Below are positions 967 to 12,880 of a stretch of DNA of 64,000 bases, one piece after another. The position numbers and the translations under genes are program-made. A model generated the notes under the pieces. It saw nothing but the letters and a program-made list of their open reading frames with translations. It had not been told where the DNA came from and searched no databases. This DNA comes from Leptolyngbya sp. NIES-3755 (GTDB lineage: Bacteria > Cyanobacteriota > Cyanobacteriia > Leptolyngbyales > Leptolyngbyaceae): NCBI GenBank assembly GCA_001548435.1, contig AP017309.1:62001-126000 (forward strand). Direction: 5' to 3'. Numbering within the stretch: position 1 is the stretch's first letter; every line of letters starts with the position of its first letter.

Positions 967-2538
967 TCATTTGAACGCTTTGATTAAAGCCTCAAGTTGC
1001 ACTCGCAGCGACTTGTCGTGCGGCGAGACGGGTGGGATCTGGCGATCGATACCGAGAAATTCATAGACTGCCATCTGAGCCGCTCGCACCGAATACTCGA
1101 CGGTGAAGACGACATCATCAGGAATTTCGACAAACTGGCTGATGAAAGCGAGGTTCTTCGAGCTATGAGGAATTGGCAAGGGTCGATCGGTGCGTAAACG
1201 AGGCATAAACATACTGGTGATGTAGGGCATTCGGCAAGGAATACAGTTCGCCGATTTTACAGTCTCCAGATCAAATCTCAGATGTCCGCAAAGTTCTCGC
1301 AGAATCTCTTCGCCGTTGCACTCGGTCATCGGTTTGGGCACGAAATCACCCACGCGATCGGGAAACAGCGCATAGCCCCAAAAGACTTGGACATCAGCAG
1401 GCTGATTTGCAAAGTGGGGTTGATAGGCAAGCACGATCGACATCAGCCAGTTTGAGTCTTTAAACGTGACCAGTCCGCCAGTTCCCGGTTGATTGCCGCT
1501 AAATTTGATCATCTTGTCGAAGAACGCAGGGTTTTTAAGCGTGACGGTGAAAGATTCCCAAGAAGACTCTGCAATGCTGCTGTTAAATGCAGCAGGATTC
1601 CCGAAATCTGAACTTTCCGCCGCCAGTTTTTCCCACAGAGTCCAACTGTCGCTGTCGTGTTTAGTCAGCTTTTGAGGCGGGCTTGTCATAGAACCCAAAC
1701 TTGAGGCATCGGTCATCGAGCCGTTTTGCAGAAACACAAGGTCGCCATCTTTAACCGCGATCACTTTGCTCTCACCACTTTGCTGATAATGAATGCCTGT
1801 CACTACAAGCTTGCTCTCTTCGATGTGGCGATCGAGATCCGTCACCTTGCAATTTGAAATGAAATGGACATTTTGATCTGCAAGCCAGCTTTGTAAGGGG
1901 CGAACTAATGAATCGTACTGATTGTAGATAGTTCGCTTCACACCAGCCAAGGTTTCAATTCGAGAGAATTCGAGCATGAAACGATGCAAATAACGCTTGA
2001 ATTCGATGGCACTATGCCAAGGCTGGAAGGCAAATGTAGTTGCCCACATATACCAGAATTCAGTCTCAAAGAATTCTGGGGAAAGCCAATCTGTAATACA
2101 AGTGTCACCTAGTTCATGTTCATCAGCCAAGCTGAGTTTCAGCAATTCTTGACGATCGTGCATGGAAAAGCCCATCGAACTGACAGGGACTTTTGCACGA
2201 CGACGGTCAACAAGACGCGCCATAGAATTTGACTTGTGCTGTTCATTAAACTCCATCGTTTCGTCAAAGACCGTTTTGCCAGGAGAACTCAGGGAGGGAA
2301 TTGACTTATAAAGATCCCAAGTGCATTCGTAATTGTCCGTCGTCAACATCCGTCCTCCCCGAATTGAATAGCCATCTACCGGGTTTCCGGCTCCATCCAA
2401 ACTCCCACCCAGAAAAGGCTTTGCTTCCAGGATAAAAATATTTCTGCCAGGAAATCCGCCATCGCGAATCATGAAGGCTGCGGCTGCCAAAGCGCCGATT
2501 CCACCCCCTAGCAGATAGGCATTAGATTCCTTGTCCAT
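967..2538 (-). CDS. ohyA: Oleate hydratase (FAD-dependent fatty acid hydratase, MCRA family)
   Basis: Predicted to add water across the cis-9 double bond of oleate-type free fatty acids, giving 10-hydroxy fatty acids; FAD is structural. The 523-aa protein opens with a dinucleotide-binding loop (LLGGGIGALAAAAF, residues 9-22). It has the family block RGGRMLTTDNYECTWDLY (about 60-77) and the FAFQPWHSAIEFKRYLHRF segment. Many characterised hydratases have RGGREM in the flexible FAD loop, where the Glu acts in catalysis. This protein has Met instead, the variant I recall from the monomeric Rhodococcus erythropolis enzyme, so activity is still plausible. The ATG at 2538 gives a start right before the Rossmann loop. 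It follows phosphoketolase by 83 bp in the same direction. Family assignment is firm; the physiological substrate is inferred. Confidence 0.9.
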   Translation of the reverse strand: MDKESNAYLLGGGIGALAAAAFMIRDGGFPGRNIFILEAKPFLGGSLDGAGNPVDGYSIRGGRMLTTDNYECTWDLYKSIPSLSSPGKTVFDETMEFNEQHKSNSMARLVDRRRAKVPVSSMGFSMHDRQELLKLSLADEHELGDTCITDWLSPEFFETEFWYMWATTFAFQPWHSAIEFKRYLHRFMLEFSRIETLAGVKRTIYNQYDSLVRPLQSWLADQNVHFISNCKVTDLDRHIEESKLVVTGIHYQQSGESKVIAVKDGDLVFLQNGSMTDASSLGSMTSPPQKLTKHDSDSWTLWEKLAAESSDFGNPAAFNSSIAESSWESFTVTLKNPAFFDKMIKFSGNQPGTGGLVTFKDSNWLMSIVLAYQPHFANQPADVQVFWGYALFPDRVGDFVPKPMTECNGEEILRELCGHLRFDLETVKSANCIPCRMPYITSMFMPRLRTDRPLPIPHSSKNLAFISQFVEIPDDVVFTVEYSVRAAQMAVYEFLGIDRQIPPVSPHDKSLRVQLEALIKAFK

Positions 2539-2621
2539 GTCAACTAACTCCCTAAAAAGTTTAAGCAGGTCTTATTTTCAGTCTCCTTTGGCTTCTTCTA
2601 TCGTCGCCATTGCTAAAACGA

Positions 2622-5003
2622 TTAGTACGACCACTTCCAATTACGGATCTCAGGCAGATCCTCTCCATGTTTAACGATGTAATGTCTGTGTTCAATGAGT
2701 TTGTCTCGAAGAAGCTGTTTTGCATGAGCGCCGATCGATTGAAGTTGCGGGACGCGATCGATCACATCCTGAGCCAGATGAAAGCGATCGAGGTCATTGA
2801 GAACTACCATATCGAATGGCGTTGTCGTCGTGCCTTCTTCCTTGTACCCGCGCACATGCAGGTTATGGTGATTAGTCCGATGACAGGTGAGGCGATGAAT
2901 CAACCAGGGATAGCCATGATAGGCAAACACGATCGGCTTATCGCGGGTGAAGATGCTATCAAAATTTTGATCACTCAATCCGTGCGGATGTTCGCTGGAA
3001 GACTGAAGCGTCATTAAGTCAACAACATTGACCACACGGATTTTTAGATCAGGAAACTGTTGACGTAAGAAATCAACTGCCGCCAAAGTTTCTAGAGTTG
3101 GTACATCTCCGGCACAAGCCATCACCACATCAGGTTCAACGCCTTGATCGTTGCTTGCCCATTCCCAGATACCCAGTCCAGCCGTGCAGTGCTTACTCGC
3201 AGTTTCGATGTCCAGCCACTGCAATTCGGGTTGCTTGCCTGCAATGATCAGATTGACATAGTGACGACTTCGCAAACAGTGATCAGTCACCGAGAGCAAA
3301 GTATTGGCATCGGGCGGTAGATACACTCGAATCACATCCGATTTCTTGTTGATAACGTGATCAATAAAACCAGGATCTTGGTGCGAAAAGCCATTGTGAT
3401 CTTGCCGCCAGACGTGAGAAGTGAGCAAGTAGTTGAGAGAAGCGATCGGTCTACGCCAAGGAATGTCATGAGTGACTTTCAACCATTTGGCATGTTGGTT
3501 GAACATTGAGTCGATGATATGGATAAATGCTTCATAGCACGAGAAGAAGCCATGCCGACCTGTCAGGAGATACCCTTCTAGCCATCCTTGGCACATATGT
3601 TCGCTGAGAACTTCCATGACTCGACCATTGGTTGCAATGTGATCATCCGTCGGCAGAATCTCGGCTGTGGAGACGCGATCGGTAACTTCCAAAATCGCAT
3701 TCCAACGATTTGAATTATTTTCGTCTGGACTCATCACTCGAAAATTGCGACTATCCAGATTCAGCTTCATCACGTCCCGCAAGAACTGCCCCATGATGCG
3801 GGTCGGTTCTGCTGTAATCGTGCCGGGTTTTGGAACTTCAACCGCGTAGTCCTGAAAGTCCGGCAGCTTCAGATCTTTGAGCAGTAACCCGCCATTGGCA
3901 TAAGGATTTGCTCCCATGCGTCGATCGCCTTTCGGCGCAAGTTCTGCCAGCTCTTCGATCAATTTCCCGCTTTCATCAAACAGTTCTTCTGGCTTGTAAC
4001 TTTTCATCCAGTCTTCCAGCAGTTTGATATGCTCAGGCTTACTTGCAAGTTCGGATAGAGGCACTTGATGAGCGCGAAACGTATTTTCGATCGAGAGTCC
4101 ATCCACAATTTTTGGTCCTGTCCATCCCTTGGGAGTTTTCAGCACAATCATTGGATGTTTAGGACGCTTTGAGAAGCCATGCGTGCGGGCATCGTGTTGA
4201 ATCGCTCTGATCTCATGTAGGATCACGTCCAGCGTTTCTGCCATTTGTTGGTGCAAGATTTCGGGATCATCTCCTTCAATAAAATACGGCTTGTAGCCAT
4301 AGCCAGCGAGTAGGCTTTGCAGTTCCTCCCGATCGATCCGCGCCAACACCGTCGGATTTGCAATCTTATAGCCATTCAAATGCAGAATGGGCAGGACGGC
4401 TCCATCGCGGGCGGGGTTCAGAAACTTGTTTGAGTGCCAACTGGTTGCCAAAGCTGCTGTTTCCGCTTCTCCATCTCCCACGACGCAGCAAACCAAAAGA
4501 TCAGGGTTGTCAAAGGCAGCACCATAGGCATGAAGCAGTGAGTATCCTAACTCCCCTCCCTCGTGGATGGAACCCGGTGTTTCAGGGGAAGCATGGCTAG
4601 GAATTCCGCCTGGGAATGAAAACTGTTTGAAAAGCTGCTTCATCCCCTCAACATCCTGCGGAATGTTGGGATAAACCTCGCTATAAGTCCCTTCAAGATA
4701 AGTGTTGGCAACGATTCCTGGACCGCCATGACCGGGACCCGCAACATAAATAACATTGAGATCCTGCGCTTTAATCACACGATTCAAATGAGCATAAATA
4801 AAGTTAAGACCTGGAGTCGTGCCCCAATGTCCGAGCAGTCGAGGTTTAATGTGTTCTAGTTTGAGCGGTTCACGCAGAAGTGGATTGTCCAGGAGATAAA
4901 TCTGACCCACCGAAAGATAGTTTGCAGCACGCCAGTAAGCATGAATCTTTCGCAGTTCGTCTGCTGTCAGAGTTTTGGGCGCGGTCGGAGTAGTAACTGT
5001 CAT
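2622..5003 (-). CDS. xfp: Xylulose-5-phosphate/fructose-6-phosphate phosphoketolase
   Basis: A TPP enzyme that cleaves xylulose-5-P or fructose-6-P with phosphate to acetyl-P plus glyceraldehyde-3-P or erythrose-4-P. At 793 aa it is full length for the family. All hallmark motifs are intact: GHWGTTPG (His59), AGPGHGGP (His92), [15 protein letters not shown] (His147), the TPP motif GDGEAET (176-182), [12 protein letters not shown], the LSEHMCQGW segment with the presumed TPP-activating Glu, TGRHGFFS, and GFSHQDPGF. The ATG at 5003 starts a typical N-terminus. It sits 105 bp downstream of a degenerate paralogue and 83 bp upstream of oleate hydratase. In cyanobacteria phosphoketolase supplies acetyl-P/acetyl-CoA in the dark or under mixotrophy. 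Next to lipid-modifying genes it could feed acyl synthesis, which is inference. Confidence 0.96.
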
Positions 5004-5108
5004 GTTAGGTAAAAAGTAAAAGGTTTCAACTGAAATTTCAAAAGTGGCTGGAGCAGTGACAAATTAACTGTTTTTCCAGACTCATCACAGGTGCAGCATT
5101 ACGACTAG

Positions 5109-7544
5109 CTAGGGGATGCTCGATCGCCCCCTCAATTTCGGACTCAGACGATATTGCTCTGCTAAAACCTGCTTGTAGTACTGCACTCGTTCACTCGCTC
5201 GTGCTGCAACAATGGGATTGCGTCGGGCTGCCAATCGAATCGCCTGAGTGATTAAATGAAAGCGTGAAGTGCCGTGACGCAGATATTGAGCAAGCGAGGG
5301 AATGGCTTCGCCTCGGTCGCCGTTGAGTTGAAAGCGGTTAGGATTTGGACGACCAAAAAGAAGCTGTTTCAAGGCTGCGATCGTGCCATGAAAGTTGATA
5401 ATGACTGGGCGATCGCGGGTGAACAATGCTTCAAACATTTCCTGATCTAAATGCTGAAAACCTTCCGCGTCTTTTTCCAACACTCGCAGGTCAGTGATAT
5501 TGACCACCCGCACCCGCAGTTCTGGCATTTCGTCTCGCAAGATGTGAGCGGCTGCCATAACTTCAACTGTAGAGCGGTCGCCAATTCCAACCAGCACTAC
5601 ATCAGGATGAGTGCCTTCATCAGTACTTGCCCGATGCCAAATTGAAGCCCCTGCCCGACAGTGCGCGATCGCTTCTGCCATGGTTAACCATTGCGGCATC
5701 GGATCAGGACTCGCAATGATGAGATTAATCTGATCGGTCGTGTTTAAGCAGTGCGCGATCGTCGTAATCAAACAGTTCGCGTCTGGCGGTAGGTAAACCC
5801 GCGCGATGTCCGCTGTTTGAGTCAGCAACGCATTGATAAAACTAGAGCTTTGCCGCGAAAAGTCGCTGTATTCCTGCTGCCATGAGTTTGAAATTGCTAA
5901 ATAATTCAGAGAAGCAACGGGCGGCTGGGCACAGCTTCCGCTTTGCGATCGCCACGGGGATGTGTTGAACTGTTGCAGGAATCTAGCGTGCTGGTTCATC
6001 CTGCTGATCATGCTGTTTAATGACGTTTCATACGACAGAAAAAGCCCGTGCCGACCTGTGAGCAGATAGCCTTGAAGCCATCCCTGACAGTTGTGGTGGC
6101 TGAAAAACTCTATTATCCGTTCTCTTCTCAAACCGATCGATACATCATCAGACTGAGTAAAATCATGATGATTGCAGTAGGCTGTTCCTGGTACGGATGT
6201 CAATCCGCCTGACGCTAAATTATTAGAACAGAAAATTCGGAACGTTTGTGGATTCTTCTCAATCACAGTTGTAATATACTTCCCAATCTGTTCTGTATTG
6301 CTAAGTTGATTTTCTTCACATAAACAGGACTGTGTTTGAATTGGAATTTCAAAGTCAAAGGTAGACGGTAAATTTAGAGGTTGATAGACCGCTTCACCAG
6401 ATGTGTAGGCATTACAGCCCATGCGTTGCTTACCTTGAGGACAAAGGTTAAGAATCTCTCGAATCGGGCATCCCTGTGCGTCAAATAATTCTTCAATTTG
6501 ATAAGAGCGTAACCAGTCTTCTAGAAGCTGTAACTGCTGCGGATTGGTTTTTACCGCTTTGGTCGGAAGTTGGCGAAAGCGATGTAACGCCTCGATCGAG
6601 TCTTGATCGATTCCTTGACTGATCCAGTCTTGCGACGATCGCACAATCAGCAAAGGGAACTTGGGGTGAGCAGTCAACTGCCCTAAACGCGCCGCTTGTT
6701 GAATGCTACAAATCTCTCGATATGCCCAATCAAATGAGCGATAGAGATCAGCATTTAAATCGATCACGGTTTGAGTCACTACATTTTTTTCAGCATGATT
6801 GTTCTGATTGCCAACGATTCGGACTTGATAGCCGTAGCCTGCGAATCGCTGCTGAAGTTCAAGATCACTCATTGCGCTATAGATAGCGGGAGTTGAAGTC
6901 TCATAGCGATCGAGGTGCAAAATTGGCAGCACTGCGCCAGATTTTGCTGGATCGATCAACTTGTAGCTGTCCCAGGCAGTAGCTGTCGCTCCTGTTTCTG
7001 CTTCTCGATCGCTCATCATGCACACTACAATCAAGTCAGGCTTATCCATGACTGCCCCAAACGCGACAGCGAGCGCATGACCGAGTTCTTCACCTGCATC
7101 AGCGTGATGGAGAAAACCACAGGGACAGGAAAAGCCCCGAATCAAGGTTGCTAGTCCCTTCGCATCTAGGGTCAGTTCGGGGTCAAACGCTTGAAGAGAT
7201 TTTTCTAAATAAAGGTTTGCCAACAGTGCAGGGGTGCCCTGTTCTGTCTCTGCAATGAGGAAAAGTCTGATGTCATGGTGCCGAATTAGACAATTGAGAT
7301 GAGCATAGATCAAGTTAATGCAAGGGCAGATATCCCAACGTCTTAGTAAACCCTCTTTGATATGCTCCGACTTTAAGGGTTCCTTGAGTAGAAAATTGTC
7401 TTTCAGGTAGATTTGAGCCGCCGCAAGGTAATTCGTTAGGCGACAATAACGCGCGATCGCTGCTAGTTCCGCCCGATGAGCCTCTCGGACTTGTGCGATC
7501 GAAGGTTCAAAATTGGCAGGAGTTGGCAGAATTGAGAAACGCAT
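5109..7544 (-). CDS. Degenerate phosphoketolase paralogue, probable pseudoenzyme
   Basis: The 811-aa protein aligns end to end with the neighbouring phosphoketolase ([54 protein letters not shown]). Its catalytic positions are replaced. His59 of the neighbour becomes Arg69 (LLRRWD). GPGHGGP becomes ETEQGTP, with His changed to Gln102. The [11 protein letters not shown] loop is deleted, leaving HHADAGEELG. The TPP motif GDGEAET becomes SDREAET, LHLNGYK becomes LHLDRYE, LSEHMC becomes FSHHNC so the presumed TPP-activating Glu is gone, and SHQDPG becomes SRQSSS. The frame is open with no internal stop, so the protein is maintained. I infer a non-catalytic partner or regulator of the intact enzyme encoded 105 bp downstream; a new activity is the alternative. 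The ATG at 7544 was taken. Confidence 0.88.
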   Translation of the reverse strand: MRFSILPTPANFEPSIAQVREAHRAELAAIARYCRLTNYLAAAQIYLKDNFLLKEPLKSEHIKEGLLRRWDICPCINLIYAHLNCLIRHHDIRLFLIAETEQGTPALLANLYLEKSLQAFDPELTLDAKGLATLIRGFSCPCGFLHHADAGEELGHALAVAFGAVMDKPDLIVVCMMSDREAETGATATAWDSYKLIDPAKSGAVLPILHLDRYETSTPAIYSAMSDLELQQRFAGYGYQVRIVGNQNNHAEKNVVTQTVIDLNADLYRSFDWAYREICSIQQAARLGQLTAHPKFPLLIVRSSQDWISQGIDQDSIEALHRFRQLPTKAVKTNPQQLQLLEDWLRSYQIEELFDAQGCPIREILNLCPQGKQRMGCNAYTSGEAVYQPLNLPSTFDFEIPIQTQSCLCEENQLSNTEQIGKYITTVIEKNPQTFRIFCSNNLASGGLTSVPGTAYCNHHDFTQSDDVSIGLRRERIIEFFSHHNCQGWLQGYLLTGRHGLFLSYETSLNSMISRMNQHARFLQQFNTSPWRSQSGSCAQPPVASLNYLAISNSWQQEYSDFSRQSSSFINALLTQTADIARVYLPPDANCLITTIAHCLNTTDQINLIIASPDPMPQWLTMAEAIAHCRAGASIWHRASTDEGTHPDVVLVGIGDRSTVEVMAAAHILRDEMPELRVRVVNITDLRVLEKDAEGFQHLDQEMFEALFTRDRPVIINFHGTIAALKQLLFGRPNPNRFQLNGDRGEAIPSLAQYLRHGTSRFHLITQAIRLAARRNPIVAARASERVQYYKQVLAEQYRLSPKLRGRSSIP

Positions 7545-7579
7545 AGTGCCTCACTTCAGTAAATATTGAAAGGTTGAAT

Positions 7580-8713
7580 TCACCTCACAGTTTGATATCC
7601 ACCAAGAATTCCATTTTTGGAAAACACAATCTGCCAAACTTGAATATGTCTCGCTCTAAAAGCGCCTGCCGACATCAACAGATAATATTTCCACATTCTG
7701 TAAAATTGATCTCCATATTTAGACGCTAATTTTCCCCAGTTTCCATCAAAATTTTGCCACCAAGCCATTAAAGTAGGGTCATAATATTGACCAAAATCAT
7801 GCCAATCTTCTATCACAAATAGCTTTTCGGCAGACCCGGAAATCTGAGCAGCAGACGGTAGTAACCCATTTGGAAAAATGTATTTGTCGATCCACCTGTC
7901 TACACAAAAATCGGTGTGATTATTGCCGATCGTGTGCAATAAAAATAATCCATCGTCTTTAAGACAACGGTTCACTTTGTCCATAAACACCCGATGATTT
8001 TTGTGCCCGACGTGTTCAACCATTCCCACAGATGCAACGCGGTCAAACTGCCCATCAAACTGACGATAATCTTGCAAAACAAACTTTACGGGTAAGCCCT
8101 CACAGAGTTCTTCTCCTAGTTTTATCTGTTCTTGAGAAACCGTAAGACCGACACAAGAAACCTCATATTTCTCAGCGGCATACTTCATCAAGCTGCCCCA
8201 ACCACAACCAATGTCTAAAAGCGTCATGCCTTTTTCAAGCTGTAGTTTTCGACAAATTAAATCCAGTTTTGCTTCTTGAGCTTGATCTAAGTTTTGAGCC
8301 GTTTTCCAGTAGCCGCAGCTATAGGTCAACCTGGAGTCAAGCATGAGTTGATAAAGCTCGTTTCCCAAGTCGTAATGGCTTTCGCCGATGTGAAAACTCC
8401 GGTTCAGGCTCTGCATGTTCCAAAGTTTTGCTTTAGCAGTTTCTAGCACTGTAGCTAGATCGTCCTTGATTTGATCGTAGAGGTTTGCTCGGAGGACTTT
8501 CGCGAAAAACTCATCTAGCTTTGGGCAATCCCACCACCCCTGCATGTAAGATTCACCCAGTCCCAGCGATCCCTGTCTCAAGACTCTTTGATAAAGATCG
8601 GTGTTGTGAACTTGCAGATCCCAAGGACGATCGCCATTAATCTCTATGTCTGCTAAAGCTAAGGTATCCTGAATGCGGCTTTGAAATTTGGGTTGGACTA
8701 AGTTGATTAGCAT
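7580..8713 (-). CDS. cfa: Cyclopropane-fatty-acyl-phospholipid synthase
   Basis: Methylates the double bond of unsaturated acyl chains in membrane phospholipids with S-adenosylmethionine, giving cyclopropane rings. Visible signatures are GSLGLGESYMQGWWDC near the N-terminus, the substrate segment HIGESHYDLGNELYQLML, the SAM-binding motif LDIGCGWGSL, SVGMVEHVGHKN, and a C-terminal SAGAFRARHIQVWQIVF. I placed the start at the ATG at 8713 (AAGG lies 9 nt upstream), giving 377 aa, close to E. coli Cfa (382 aa). The frame is open 13 codons further to a TTG at 8752, a less likely start. It lies 51 bp after the COG2907 flavoprotein; that pairing recurs in many bacteria. Cfa products protect membranes against acid and oxidative stress. 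Confidence 0.94.
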   Translation of the reverse strand: MLINLVQPKFQSRIQDTLALADIEINGDRPWDLQVHNTDLYQRVLRQGSLGLGESYMQGWWDCPKLDEFFAKVLRANLYDQIKDDLATVLETAKAKLWNMQSLNRSFHIGESHYDLGNELYQLMLDSRLTYSCGYWKTAQNLDQAQEAKLDLICRKLQLEKGMTLLDIGCGWGSLMKYAAEKYEVSCVGLTVSQEQIKLGEELCEGLPVKFVLQDYRQFDGQFDRVASVGMVEHVGHKNHRVFMDKVNRCLKDDGLFLLHTIGNNHTDFCVDRWIDKYIFPNGLLPSAAQISGSAEKLFVIEDWHDFGQYYDPTLMAWWQNFDGNWGKLASKYGDQFYRMWKYYLLMSAGAFRARHIQVWQIVFSKNGILGGYQTVR

Positions 8714-8764
8714 TATCAAAAACCTTGAATAAAGAATTGATGGTTGAAGCAATAGTCGAAAAAA

Positions 8765-10030
8765 TTAGTATCCTACTTGCTGCGCTTGACTGCTAATCAA
8801 TGGGGTAGAGTCAAGGCTTGACCCGATCAGTTGAGCGACTCGAAAAGCAGAGGTAATGGCTCCTTCATGTAAGCCATCGCCCAAGTAGGCTCCGACATGA
8901 TAGGTGTTGTTCTCCCCATTAGCGGCAACCACTTCATCTCGGTATCGAAAGGATTCTGTGGTATACATCGGGGTGTGATGTTTCTGAATGTGGATGATGC
9001 GATCGCGGGCAATCAACTCCTCTAGTTGGAACGATAGAAAATGATGCTCTGGAGATGAGATGCCGCAAAGCTGATTCAGACAGCCGTTATAGCCCCAGCG
9101 AGTGTCTGTCTGGAAGAAATCAAATTCTGAGGGTTTTTTGATGTCATGGTAGGCGTACATCGAAGAATCATTGTGAACTAAGGTCGTTGCGTAGTTGGCT
9201 TTCCAGGCAGAAAACCGTCTAGTCTCGGCATCGGTTGGGTCTGCCAACAGCGCCATCACCTGGTCAGGGGGCGTAGCAAACACCACTCGATCGAATTCCT
9301 GATCGCCCGTCGATCGCACAATTCTCACAGCATCCAAGCTTCTAGAAATACGATCGATCTCTACATTCAGCACCACCTCACCTTTGAACCGCGCCAGAAT
9401 TTTTTCAATGTAAGAATACACACCGCCTTTCACCCTGACCCAGTTGACCGAGATATAGTCGCGCAACATTGGAATCGCTAACTCTGCCGGAAAATCATCA
9501 ATTAGCTCAAACGGAATTGAGTAGCTATACATGATCAGCAACTTCAGCCAGGTATTGCGAATGGAGGGATATTTCAGGTATTGCGACAGCGGTTGATTAT
9601 AGAAGTCTTGCTGATTGGCAAATCGCGTTTTCAGCCATAATTTAGCAGAGCGGGCATAGAGAGTAGTAATGCGAAAATGCTCGATCAGCGCGTGGATGCC
9701 CGAAAAATTTTTGTCGATCGTAACCCCTGATAGATATTGATTACCATTTTTAAGAAACATCGCTGAACCAATACTAACTGGTTCGAGTTCTACCCCTAAC
9801 TCTTGCATTAACACAATGAAGTTGTGAAACGCTGTTGGAAACTCAAGTACTCCACTTTCCAAAATTTCGCCACAATCTGATTGATTCGGCTTCACGTTTT
9901 TATTCAGTGTCCGAATATGTCCTCCTAACATGGGCTGCCGTTCAAATACGGTGACATGATGCCCTTGTTTATCAAGCAGATAGGCTGTAGCCATTCCACT
10001 ACTTCCGCCCCCAATCACAGCAATTCTCAT
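8765..10030 (-). CDS. FAD/NAD(P)-binding amine-oxidase-like protein (COG2907)
   Basis: A 421-aa flavoprotein. The N-terminal Rossmann motif is VIGGGSSGMATAYLL with the acidic strand end VFERQPMLGGHI. Later segments typical of COG2907 are VVFATPPDQVMALL, ATTLVHNDSSMY and NTYHVGAYLGDGLHEGA near the C-terminus. Its substrate is not known from sequence. COG2907 proteins recur beside cyclopropane synthase genes, and here cfa follows after 51 bp, so a role in modifying or reducing unsaturated or cyclopropanated lipids is the best inference. The ATG at 10030 places the Rossmann motif at residue 3, so the start is well constrained. The upstream gene is a second FAD protein 45 bp away, which suggests an operon. 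Confidence 0.88.
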   Translation of the reverse strand: MRIAVIGGGSSGMATAYLLDKQGHHVTVFERQPMLGGHIRTLNKNVKPNQSDCGEILESGVLEFPTAFHNFIVLMQELGVELEPVSIGSAMFLKNGNQYLSGVTIDKNFSGIHALIEHFRITTLYARSAKLWLKTRFANQQDFYNQPLSQYLKYPSIRNTWLKLLIMYSYSIPFELIDDFPAELAIPMLRDYISVNWVRVKGGVYSYIEKILARFKGEVVLNVEIDRISRSLDAVRIVRSTGDQEFDRVVFATPPDQVMALLADPTDAETRRFSAWKANYATTLVHNDSSMYAYHDIKKPSEFDFFQTDTRWGYNGCLNQLCGISSPEHHFLSFQLEELIARDRIIHIQKHHTPMYTTESFRYRDEVVAANGENNTYHVGAYLGDGLHEGAITSAFRVAQLIGSSLDSTPLISSQAQQVGY

Positions 10031-10075
10031 TCTTGACCTCTCAGTTTGTGAGATGAATAGTGCGCGGTCTGTTGT

Positions 10076-11614
10076 TTAGTCATTGCCTAAAAGCACGTCG
10101 CCAGATAATCGTTGATACAGCAATGCTCCTGTCCAGAATGTGGGAGCAAAGCCTGGATAGCCCGATGAGGCATTGCAGAAATAGAACTGGTTGAGTGAAG
10201 TTTCGTGATTCAGTCGCCCCAAACCCATGTTGCGTGGAGTTAGACTAGAGCCGTAGGAATTCCCATTAGGACACCAGCAATAACGTTCATTGGTAGTAGG
10301 GCTGCCCGTAATATGGAAGACCATGTGCTTTCTAAAGTTTGGTACATAGTGTTCTTCCACGACATCTAAGATAGAATCTAAAATTTCTTGCTTTTTCTGG
10401 TTATAAGCTTTGCGATCGCTCTCCCGGAGTTGCTTAAAGTAGCCGTAGTTGGCAACAGTCAGGAATTCAACAATCTGGCAGTCTTCTGGACAGTCCCGAC
10501 TCGCTTCTGTCAGTAATGTAGGCGTTGTGATGGCAAAGCTAGGATTAGAAAAGTCATGGCGATCGTACATCTGCGCGAAGGCTTCATTCAGATCGTGATG
10601 TCCGGTATGCGAGACATTCCACTTGCCAAAGCCATAGTCTCGAAGGTCGAGATCTTTGACGACGCAATACGCCATGTAGTTCGATGCCGAATATTCATAG
10701 TTGAGTTTGCGGCGAACCGTTTTGGAGAACTTTGACTCCCCGATCATTTTGGCGGCTCTTTGAGGGTCAAGATTGCAAATGACGGTATCACCCGTAAACT
10801 CGTCGGTTTGATGGGTCGTGAGGTCGATCGCCTGAACCCCCGTAACCGTTTTGTCTGTGACTCTAAAATTCGTGACTTCATGGTTGAGCAGCACCTGCCC
10901 CCCATGTGATTCGATGACCTTGACCAACGAGTTAATGACATGCTCAAAATGCTGGGTTGGGTAAAATGCGCCTGCCTGGTAGCCCTTGAACAATGCGACC
11001 CACGCATAAAACGAGAGTTGATTGGGGGGCAGCAAAAAATCAAGCCATTGCAGGGCTAGTAGAGTTTGAGCAGCTTGCGGTAGCTGAAACTTGTCGAAGA
11101 CATCCTGAAGCGTACTCTTTAGATTTTGAACAGTGCAGAAGACTTCATTCGGATGTTTGAGTAGCTCGATCGGCTTGACTGGAGGAGCAAGTCTTTTCAA
11201 GCCTGCGCTAGTCTTTTCCACCTCGTTGACGAATTGGCGAAAGCGATCGCCATGAGCCGGAAACAGAGCCGTCAAGCGCTGGATTAGCTCTTCTGGCTCT
11301 GAGGGAATATCTAACGCATGACCTGGCATTCGCATATGGTCAAAGCCGTTCGGGTCATATCGTTCAAAGGTCACTTCCTGATCCAACCCTAGTTTTTTGA
11401 GCACCCGATTGACAGTTTGCCCTTCACCGCAGTCCCAGACGTAGTGAAATTGGGCATTAAACGTATACTTTTTAGCCATCGTAAACGTATGACCAAAACC
11501 GCCTGGATGCTCGTGCGCCTCTAGAATTTGCACAGTCTTGCCAGAGTTTGCCATTAAAGCACCAAAGACCAAGGCGGATAACCCACTGCCAACAATCAAG
11601 TAATCCGGTTTCAT
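10076..11614 (-). CDS. Phytoene desaturase / carotenoid isomerase-like FAD oxidoreductase (COG1233)
   Basis: The 512-aa protein begins MKPDYLIVGSGLSALVFGA, a dinucleotide-binding fold right at the N-terminus. It continues with VQILEAHEHPGGFGHTF and ends with the C-terminal motif FYFCNASSGYPGFAPTFW, typical of the CrtI / CrtISO / retinol saturase superfamily. The frame is open 38 codons further upstream, but that would overlap the metallochaperone gene. The ATG at 11614 has a GAGG Shine-Dalgarno 9 nt ahead, so I used it. Substrate is unknown: carotenoid, retinoid or unsaturated fatty acid are all possible. Sitting upstream of COG2907 and Cfa, a lipid double-bond substrate is plausible, but this is inference. 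Confidence 0.85.
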   Translation of the reverse strand: MKPDYLIVGSGLSALVFGALMANSGKTVQILEAHEHPGGFGHTFTMAKKYTFNAQFHYVWDCGEGQTVNRVLKKLGLDQEVTFERYDPNGFDHMRMPGHALDIPSEPEELIQRLTALFPAHGDRFRQFVNEVEKTSAGLKRLAPPVKPIELLKHPNEVFCTVQNLKSTLQDVFDKFQLPQAAQTLLALQWLDFLLPPNQLSFYAWVALFKGYQAGAFYPTQHFEHVINSLVKVIESHGGQVLLNHEVTNFRVTDKTVTGVQAIDLTTHQTDEFTGDTVICNLDPQRAAKMIGESKFSKTVRRKLNYEYSASNYMAYCVVKDLDLRDYGFGKWNVSHTGHHDLNEAFAQMYDRHDFSNPSFAITTPTLLTEASRDCPEDCQIVEFLTVANYGYFKQLRESDRKAYNQKKQEILDSILDVVEEHYVPNFRKHMVFHITGSPTTNERYCWCPNGNSYGSSLTPRNMGLGRLNHETSLNQFYFCNASSGYPGFAPTFWTGALLYQRLSGDVLLGND

Positions 11615-11708
11615 AGCATGATTCCTCGAACAATGAACGTCTGAATAGAAAAGCGATCGCGCCTGTAGCCTGAGAATTGAACCTCCTGTCAGAACCTCTG
11701 ATACTGGG

Positions 11709-11903
11709 TTAACTAGCGGGATAGCCAACCTTGGCGATCGCTGCCTTAATTGCTGTTTCAGAAGCTTGAGTTTCCGCTAAGACAGTCTTGGTTTTTGGAT
11801 CGCCCTGAACAACAGCGTTAGCATCAACGGTTTTAATCGCTCTAGTGATGCTGCTTACACAACCGCCGCAGGTCATGTCGGGAACTTTTAATTGGAGTTT
11901 CAT
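11709..11903 (-). CDS. copZ: Heavy-metal-associated domain chaperone (CopZ/Atx1-like)
   Basis: A 64-aa single HMA domain with the metal-binding motif MTCGGC (residues 10-15) and the ferredoxin-like fold ending AAIAKVGYPAS. Such proteins carry Cu(I) in the cytoplasm and deliver it to P1B ATPases or to thylakoid targets. The CopA-like ATPase at 14958-17162 has a YHS domain instead of an HMA domain at its N-terminus, so this chaperone may supply the missing donor function. AAGGA lies 9 nt before the ATG at 11903. The upstream gene ends about 80 bp away, and the next gene downstream starts 94 bp on. Confidence 0.9.
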   Translation of the reverse strand: MKLQLKVPDMTCGGCVSSITRAIKTVDANAVVQGDPKTKTVLAETQASETAIKAAIAKVGYPAS

Positions 11904-11983
11904 GGAATTAAATCCTTATTTTTGTACGATTAGTTAGGAAAGTTTTGGACAATCAACATTTGGATAATCAGCAATACTCTTCT

Positions 11984-12337
11984 CTATTCTCTAATCTGTT
12001 TTGCCTTGCTGTTGGGGCAATAATCTGTGCAATCAACTGCTTGTTCGGTCAGCACGGTTATTGGATGGAGAGCGCACTTAAGATAGGGATTCTGGCTGAA
12101 ATAACGACAGCGACGGCACGGAGCCTCAGAACGCGGTTTGAAGCTCAATGAATGCTGCCTCTGCTTGGGAATCCAGGCATAAATCGCAGCAGCGATCGCT
12201 GAAAATATTACAAGGCTCATGATCATCAGGAAGGCTGCATCCAGAGCAGAGAAAGTTTCAATCCCTCGTTGGCTTGAAGGAAGTGAATTAGATGGCTGAG
12301 TTGCGATCGTTTTTGCTTCCATTTGCATAACTTCCAT
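11984..12337 (-). CDS. Single-TM protein with C-terminal Cys cluster, unknown function
   Basis: 117 aa. One strong membrane helix (FLMIMSLVIFSAIAAAIYAW, about residues 36-55) is followed by a soluble tail with six cysteines: CRRCRYF, YLKCALHP, VDCTDYCP. The spacing CxxC-x9-C...C-x3-C resembles a small metal or Fe-S site. I recall similar CRYF...CALHP...DC tails in other cyanobacterial hypothetical proteins, but no function. It lies 21 bp after the universal stress protein gene and before the copper chaperone gene, in the same direction, so a metal- or stress-related role is inferred. The start could be Met1 (12337) or Met4 or Met6. An opposite-strand frame over 11945-12151 was judged spurious. 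Confidence 0.65.
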   Translation of the reverse strand: MEVMQMEAKTIATQPSNSLPSSQRGIETFSALDAAFLMIMSLVIFSAIAAAIYAWIPKQRQHSLSFKPRSEAPCRRCRYFSQNPYLKCALHPITVLTEQAVDCTDYCPNSKAKQIRE

Positions 12338-12358
12338 GATTTCAAATGAGCGCCAGCG

Positions 12359-12880
12359 CTAAATTAAGCGTGTCGCCATCGGTCTAGGATCGGCAACTAC
12401 CTTGACCTGAGATTGCACCGTTAGCACCGAGCAGTGAGCATGGTGAATCACGTAATTACTGACACTACCCATGAATGTCTCACTCAGCCCAGACAGTCCT
12501 CGCCGTCCAATCACAATCAAGTCAGCATCCCATGTACAAGCGGTTTCACAAATCGCTTTACCAGGACTGCCAGCAACCTGTTTATATTCTGTGTGTACGC
12601 CTGCGGCAGTTGCAATTTCAAAGCGCGATCGCAAGCACTCAAGCCCCTTTTGCGAAAACTCTTGCCAAAGGTCTTGAAAGTTTTTTAAGTTGACATTATC
12701 ACTTGTAGAGTAGTAATGCCAATAGACGTTGCTAATGTCTGGACACCCTTCCTCATCGGGCGACAAAATGTGCAATAACATCAGACTGGCTCCATTCTTT
12801 TCCGCCAAGTCAAGCGCCTGATCAAATACACGCTTACCAACTTTAGACATATCCATTGCAGCGAGAACTTTGTGAAACAT
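12359..12880 (-). CDS. Universal stress protein (UspA family)
   Basis: A 173-aa single Usp domain. It starts MFHKVLAAMDMSKVGKRVF, with the usual Asp at the end of strand 1, then SLMLLHILSPDE. The ATP-binding G-2x-G-9x-G-(S/T) loop is visible as VIGRRGLSGLSETFMGSVSNYV, followed by HCSVLTV. So this is probably an ATP-binding class member. In many bacteria such genes accompany phosphoketolase, DUF1269 and cation P-ATPase genes in stress or microaerobic clusters, and all of these are within 13 kb here. The ATG at 12880 agrees with the family start. A 164-bp gap upstream holds no gene that I can see. Confidence 0.92.
   Translation of the reverse strand: MFHKVLAAMDMSKVGKRVFDQALDLAEKNGASLMLLHILSPDEEGCPDISNVYWHYYSTSDNVNLKNFQDLWQEFSQKGLECLRSRFEIATAAGVHTEYKQVAGSPGKAICETACTWDADLIVIGRRGLSGLSETFMGSVSNYVIHHAHCSVLTVQSQVKVVADPRPMATRLI

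Follow-up and report, generated by a model that had tools for sequence, protein, structure and literature searches.

Human TKTL1, a copy of transketolase, is the closest precedent for the gene analyzed here and its nearest functional analogue, and belongs to the same superfamily; its fold is thought to be kept, and it reportedly fails to bind thiamine diphosphate (ThDP) and pairs with active TKT in heterodimers (PMC12525540, PMC3485151). ThDP enzymes are defined by a GD...N motif in the PP domain and a catalytic Glu in the PYR domain (PMC2831816). SeXPK, the S. elongatus phosphoketolase (XFP) whose structure 8IO8 is named as such in PMC10365998, is a dodecamer inhibited by adenosine triphosphate (ATP) with the ATP motif PWX2HX3YRX7HXRX31R, and in a cyanobacterium phosphoketolase puts a brake on the Calvin cycle (PMC10365998). 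Extra XFP isozymes are known in cyanobacteria: Anabaena alr1850 and Synechocystis sll0529 are discussed as active or possibly allosterically inhibited, the activity of sll0529 being still to verify (PMC7744508), and were compared by description only. The gene under study lies in a 64,000-nucleotide stretch of Leptolyngbya sp. NIES-3755 (assembly GCA_001548435.1, contig AP017309.1, positions 62,001 to 126,000; hereafter the window) and encodes a full-length XFP homologue whose active site does not work (Table 1). This dead XFP is a real, rare and selectively maintained pseudoenzyme of the phosphoketolase family. Its catalytic residues are gone and its coding sequence is under purifying selection. 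No description of a pseudo-phosphoketolase was found in listings of the open-licence literature.

The open reading frame (ORF) starts with ATG and is open throughout, and its coordinates, strand and length agreed with those of a preliminary description made from the DNA letters. The protein matched Pfam XFP_N (325.8 bits), XFP (162.2 bits) and XFP_C (176.2 bits), all above the gathering scores, and residues 25-769 matched structure 8io8 (535.9 bits). These are the three Pfam domains of SeXPK, and a Pfam scan returned no domain beyond them. None of the NCBIfam phosphoketolase cut-offs was reached (best 703.2 against a cut-off of 962). By descent, the dead XFP belongs to the phosphoketolase family, with homology over all three domains; its residues do not show the features that define an active ThDP enzyme. 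A promoter and terminator scan gave no excess over shuffles.

Orthologues were found by a scan of genome contigs in Nostoc sp. 210A (a Peltigera cyanobiont), Nostoc sp. KVJ20 and the metagenome-assembled genome (MAG) PMM_0019. Plasmid searches yielded one more, on pC052_E of Nostoc sp. C052 (232,629 bp, typed conjugative, recorded complete). Whole-genome searches returned the dead gene from 1 of 42 genomes of its own family and from 3 of 217 genomes of the family of genome G374 (at most four candidates scored per genome), these three being the copies of KVJ20, 210A and C052 again, without a differing letter. Two other families gave 0 of 63 and 0 of 36, and a broader draw from the order gave 1 of 388, this being the PMM_0019 fragment. 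Within a class draw of 388 genomes, the source genome alone scored above the sister lineage described below. Both 388-genome draws were samples, possibly overlapping, with at most two candidates scored per genome. Among the genomes searched, which were not a census, the dead gene is therefore rare and its distribution patchy; full-length copies were found in four genomes. Four of the five copies were open end to end. The fifth, that of PMM_0019, was 5'-truncated and frameshifted; it lies near a contig end, so that the truncation is possibly an assembly effect, and the frameshift is internal. Frameshift decay in relatives, which had been named in advance as evidence against a conserved partner, was therefore seen once.

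An alignment served to map seventeen functional positions, namely 13 catalytic or substrate residues (His64, His97, His142, Gly155, His320, Gln321, Ser440, Glu479, Tyr501, Gln546, His548, Asn549 and His553, in Bifidobacterium numbering, as given for His97; PMC10547157, PMC6435721), the three GDG residues and one following Asn, the last being our own choice with no paper behind it. The alignment comprised 75 distinct locus ORFs plus the two window proteins (77 rows in all), of which 69 passed a 700-amino-acid length filter: five rows of dead copies, one duplicating the window protein, and 64 others, one duplicating its neighbor (63 distinct). Six positions were retained in the window copy (His142, the Asp of GDG, Gln321, Ser440, Tyr501 and Gln546), nine in KVJ20, and eight each in C052 and 210A. 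The non-degenerate rows retained every position in 64 of 64, save His548 (62 of 64). Gone from all four whole copies were His97, Gly155, both Gly of GDG, Glu479, His548, Asn549 and His553, and an 8-residue deletion beside Gly155 was common to them. His64, His320 and the mapped Asn were missing from the window copy alone.

Measured against the definition of a ThDP enzyme, GD of the PP-domain motif was replaced by SD in the window copy and by KD or SD in Nostoc, the mapped Asn was D in the window copy and N in Nostoc, and the catalytic Glu of the PYR domain was H or Q in all four dead copies and E in 64 of 64 others. The lesions fell in both halves, PP and PYR, of the ThDP active site. Among the marks of an active XFP (His64, His97, His142, His320, His553 and the Gly155 loop), only His142 was retained in the window copy. 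Unlike SeXPK, the dead XFP lacks most catalytic residues and the ATP motif: column mapping found 0 of 8 motif positions in each of the four copies, the last position standing beside a gap and being uncertain. The preliminary description had the His regions, GDG, loop and Glu all replaced or deleted, which held for the loop, Glu479, both Gly, His97 and His553 and failed for His142 and the Asp of GDG. Its expectation that orthologues lack the same residues was borne out for the key lesions in the three Nostoc copies, though not for His64 and His320. Since the shared lesions occur in all four full-length orthologues, they predate the split between the window and Nostoc copies. Of 189 columns invariant in ordinary XFPs, 124 were retained by all four dead copies and 43 were lost by all four. 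Losses in at least one copy affected 12 of 16 functional positions versus 53 of 173 other invariant columns (p=0.0007); for losses in all four copies the figures were 7 of 16 versus 36 of 173, which was not significant (p=0.056).

Selection was measured by maximum likelihood with our own codon-model script on the four whole copies and the MAG fragment. Omega was 0.465 for the dead gene (twice the log-likelihood difference from omega = 1, 64.7), 0.488 when the three Nostoc copies were taken by themselves (11.2), and between 0.40 and 0.58 in five regions of the gene. The adjacent intact XFP gave 0.119, and three syntenic genes gave 0.116-0.187. By the Nei-Gojobori method omega was 0.30-0.40 for dead-gene pairs, 0.07-0.12 for the neighbor and 0.00-0.17 for five syntenic genes. 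Seven dead-gene pairs were bootstrapped, and the interval of each lay below 1. No stops were present in the four whole frames. Simulated neutral evolution, limited to base changes, produced about 22 in-frame stops over the distance that separates the window and Nostoc copies (0.35 per site); at 0.03 per site it produced 2.9, with 4% of runs free of stops. As gaps in codon alignments necessarily come in multiples of three, open frames and not gap lengths were taken as evidence. Because the lesions are shared, the constraint came after the loss of catalysis: purifying selection after the lesions was real but relaxed. A history as a neutral pseudogene was ruled out by omega and the stop simulation, while weak constraint without protein function is weighed below. 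On shared lesions, open frames and selection after the lesions, the earlier view of a conserved inactive paralogue was upheld.

In the trees the whole dead copies (support 100) grouped with an XFP lineage separate from the type common in cyanobacteria. Their nearest relatives found, a sister lineage 52-56% identical (L039-L041, L119-L129), formed one supported clade with them; unlike the dead copies, these relatives had 17 of 17 functional positions in 14 of 14 rows. The stem of the dead clade was long (0.57 changes per column, compared with 0.01-0.22 for sister tips), and the trees are to be read with the long branches and odd amino-acid make-up of the dead copies in mind. The sister XFP was the only one found, besides weak transketolase-like matches, in 11 of 14 genomes (three of the 11 being 84-90% complete), whereas carriers of the dead gene have others; it is therefore very probably the working enzyme of those genomes, as judged from gene content. 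An acetate kinase ORF lay downstream of the sister XFP in 9 of 12 loci read (four ORFs confirmed by Pfam); adjacency was read from ORF starts, L123 has an intervening ORF, L122 and L129 end too near, and L126 and L127 were left out. As judged from trees and alignment, the dead XFP was shown to descend from this second, active-looking cyanobacterial lineage, and the losses from both half-sites to have happened in one ancestor. Most positions of the SeXPK ATP motif were absent from the three sister rows checked. Two phosphoketolase loci were also seen on viral-collection contigs, L116, which has 17 of 17 positions, and L117.

The adjacent XFP, 105 bp downstream, retained 17 of 17 functional positions, passed four of six NCBIfam phosphoketolase models and matched SeXPK 8IO8 at 1194.9 bits, which makes it a closer relative of SeXPK than the dead copy; the two window XFPs are 37-38% identical. 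Its ATP-site residues corresponding to Y710 and R711 (S. elongatus numbering) are C and H. The KVJ20 and MAG copies of this neighbor have the full ATP motif, and the ATP inhibition of the window neighbor may differ. The description of it as fully conserved is thus right for the functional positions and not for the ATP-inhibition motif, altered at two of eight. Both genes were whole in the window and KVJ20. The neighbor was cut after about 131 codons in 210A and after about 25 codons in C052, each time with the dead gene whole; the differing breakpoints are most simply two events, nested deletions being another possibility. The reverse was found in PMM_0019, where the neighbor was open, full length and had 16 of 17 positions while the dead gene was broken. 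A relative of the neighbor, 84% identical, stood in a similar copper/stress island of another genome (413,092-bp contig) with no dead copy within the 19 kb read. The expectation that the dead gene always neighbors an intact XFP consequently failed, and an obligate partnership with the neighboring XFP was ruled out, each gene occurring without a whole copy of the other.

All five carrier genomes had at least one further full-length XFP elsewhere. A copy with 17 of 17 positions was checked in four of them; that of the MAG was an open frame with most motif strings. For the source genome, this was an intact XFP on another contig (17 of 17 positions), accompanied by a weak transketolase-like match. 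Asn stood at His548 in the MAG neighbor XFP and in one of the two other C052 XFPs (L007:1963-4404, L091), the sole such rows of the 64.

The window lies on a contig of 325,675 bp that is plausibly a plasmid. Around the XFP pair, positions 967-12880 hold a cyclopropane fatty acid synthase, an oleate hydratase, two flavin adenine dinucleotide (FAD)-dependent oxidoreductases and a universal stress protein, and parts of this cluster also occur on the conjugative plasmid pC052_E. A heavy-metal island (14958-63885) holds a YHS-domain P-type ATPase, four AcrB-type RND pumps, a MerR regulator, a copper-chaperone-family protein, a multicopper oxidase, a DUF305 protein and two OprB porins. Island parts (CrtD-like and other FAD oxidoreductases, XFPs, oleate hydratase, copper/stress genes) were variably common to the window, Nostoc and the MAG, so that horizontal transfer on plasmids is suggested; this distribution suggests that the dead gene moves on plasmids with the copper/stress and fatty-acid gene island.

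Table 1. Genes and active-site lesions at the dead XFP locus (window positions; all features on the minus strand)
Feature	Position	Strand	Remark
Pseudo-phosphoketolase gene	5109..7544	-	811 amino acids; full-length XFP homologue, active site not working
Catalytic His97 position	7239..7241	-	Q in window; Y, D, Y in KVJ20, 210A, C052
Shared 8-residue deletion	7098..7103	-	PETPGSIHE loop of ordinary XFP; site approximate, alignment-dependent
ThDP/Mg GDG motif	7005..7013	-	SDR (SDQ or KDQ in Nostoc); Asp alone retained
ThDP-activating Glu479 position	6096..6098	-	H in window; Q in all three Nostoc orthologues
HNGFSH loop (His548, Asn549, His553)	5853..5870	-	YSDFSR
Adjacent XFP	2622..5003	-	793 amino acids; catalytically intact
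Oleate hydratase	967..2538	-	Next gene downstream; also in 210A, KVJ20 and MAG loci
Cyclopropane fatty acid synthase	7580..8752	-	Upstream; in Nostoc not between the same two genes
FAD-dependent oxidoreductase	8765..10030	-	Directly upstream of dead XFP in three Nostoc loci
CrtD-like FAD oxidoreductase	10076..11728	-	Syntenic in three Nostoc loci

Each ThDP site of XFP is probably composed of the PP half of one subunit and the PYR half of the other. With lesions in both half-sites, a mixed dimer of a dead and an intact subunit should have no complete site, and inhibition or buffering, rather than allosteric tuning, would be the likeliest effect of assembly. It is tentatively proposed, as a reading of the residues that is plausible but short of probable, that the retained function of the dead XFP is structural: as a pseudoenzyme, it would assemble with intact XFP, either the neighbor or another genomic copy, into mixed dimers or higher oligomers and so lower or buffer XFP activity. 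It would then act as a dominant-negative brake, which the half-site lesions make likelier than an activator. In SeXPK, a dodecamer of dimers, ThDP occupies the dimer interface (PMC10365998), and the active site of transketolase lies where its two subunits meet (PMC3485151). An activating heterodimer was judged unlikely given lesions in both half-sites (PMC10365998, PMC3485151, and the subunit arrangement above), and an ATP-sensing partner was ruled out by the absence of the SeXPK ATP motif from the dead copies. The heteromeric or allosteric control put forward in the preliminary description consequently keeps a plausible heteromer, as far as the residues indicate, and loses both the allosteric part, for want of the ATP motif, and a heteromer restricted to the neighbor, which is contradicted by whole copies of each gene without the other.

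The presence of another full-length XFP in all five carriers was counted as support for mixed oligomers. Several findings weigh against them. Of the five loci, two combine a truncated neighbor with a whole dead gene, and in one the dead gene itself is broken. At only 37% identity between the dead XFP and its neighbor, a shared dimer interface is uncertain. Structure prediction from a shallow alignment of seven proteins gave a mean pLDDT (the confidence score of the model) of 39.9 for the dead XFP and 35.3 for the intact control, both equally poor and too low to judge folding or an interface. Constraint on the dead gene is about four times weaker than on the neighbor, and the formerly invariant positions that were lost still vary within the dead clade (22 of 38 identical, versus 452 of 624 non-invariant columns).

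Somewhat unlikely, yet to be taken seriously, is a slowly dying relic of a redundant enzyme, in which constraint would reflect selection against toxic misfolding or against polar effects on genes further down the operon. The relaxed omega, about four times that of the neighbor, speaks for it, as do the one broken copy of five, the additional active-site residues lost in the window copy alone and the rarity of the gene, with full-length copies in only the four genomes found. Omega is nevertheless below 1 both within Nostoc and overall, the frame is open over a distance where drift gives about 22 stops, missense constraint is not explained by polarity alone, and the C052 gene is whole though no intact XFP or oleate hydratase directly follows it.

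Neofunctionalization as a homo-oligomer, with ligand binding or a scaffold role unrelated to XFP activity and perhaps tied to the fatty-acid and stress genes of the island, is unlikely. Such a role would fit the two FAD oxidoreductases that lie in one cluster with each of the four whole copies, including those whose neighboring XFP is truncated, and the constraint seen in each of the five regions. Against it, the former active-site positions have not become fixed for new residues, and no other Pfam domain was found. Because the lost positions are still changing inside the clade, the former active site has taken on no fixed new role, and a new active site at the old position was not favored.

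Residual or changed ThDP catalysis is highly improbable. Some ThDP enzymes function without the activating Glu, and the six residues that the window copy retains, the Asp of GDG among them, would count in its favor; the loop is deleted, however, both Gly of GDG, Glu479, Asn549 and His553 are gone in all four copies, and several replacement residues differ between copies. Sequencing or assembly error, for which orthologues with intact motifs had been the sign to look for, had nothing in its favor; it is refuted for the shared lesions and practically excluded altogether, as four whole orthologues from four genomes, one on a plasmid recorded complete, share them, and the deletion and Glu loss recur in the three Nostoc copies.

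The proposed mixed-oligomer brake would set the dead XFP beside TKTL1, with differences. TKTL1 is a human transketolase copy; the dead XFP is a bacterial phosphoketolase copy with the PYR half damaged too. Unlike TKTL1, it lies at least once on a plasmid and is 37% identical to its active neighbor. It is conceivable, though rather doubtful, that a plasmid-borne dead XFP poisons or tunes host and plasmid XFPs through mixed oligomers with incomplete sites, as a mobile regulator of a carbon-fixation bypass. Phosphoketolase is also used in metabolic engineering, and a naturally selected dead subunit would, if true, be a ready dominant-negative control element. If true, the TKTL1 type of pseudoenzyme would extend to phosphoketolases and to bacteria.
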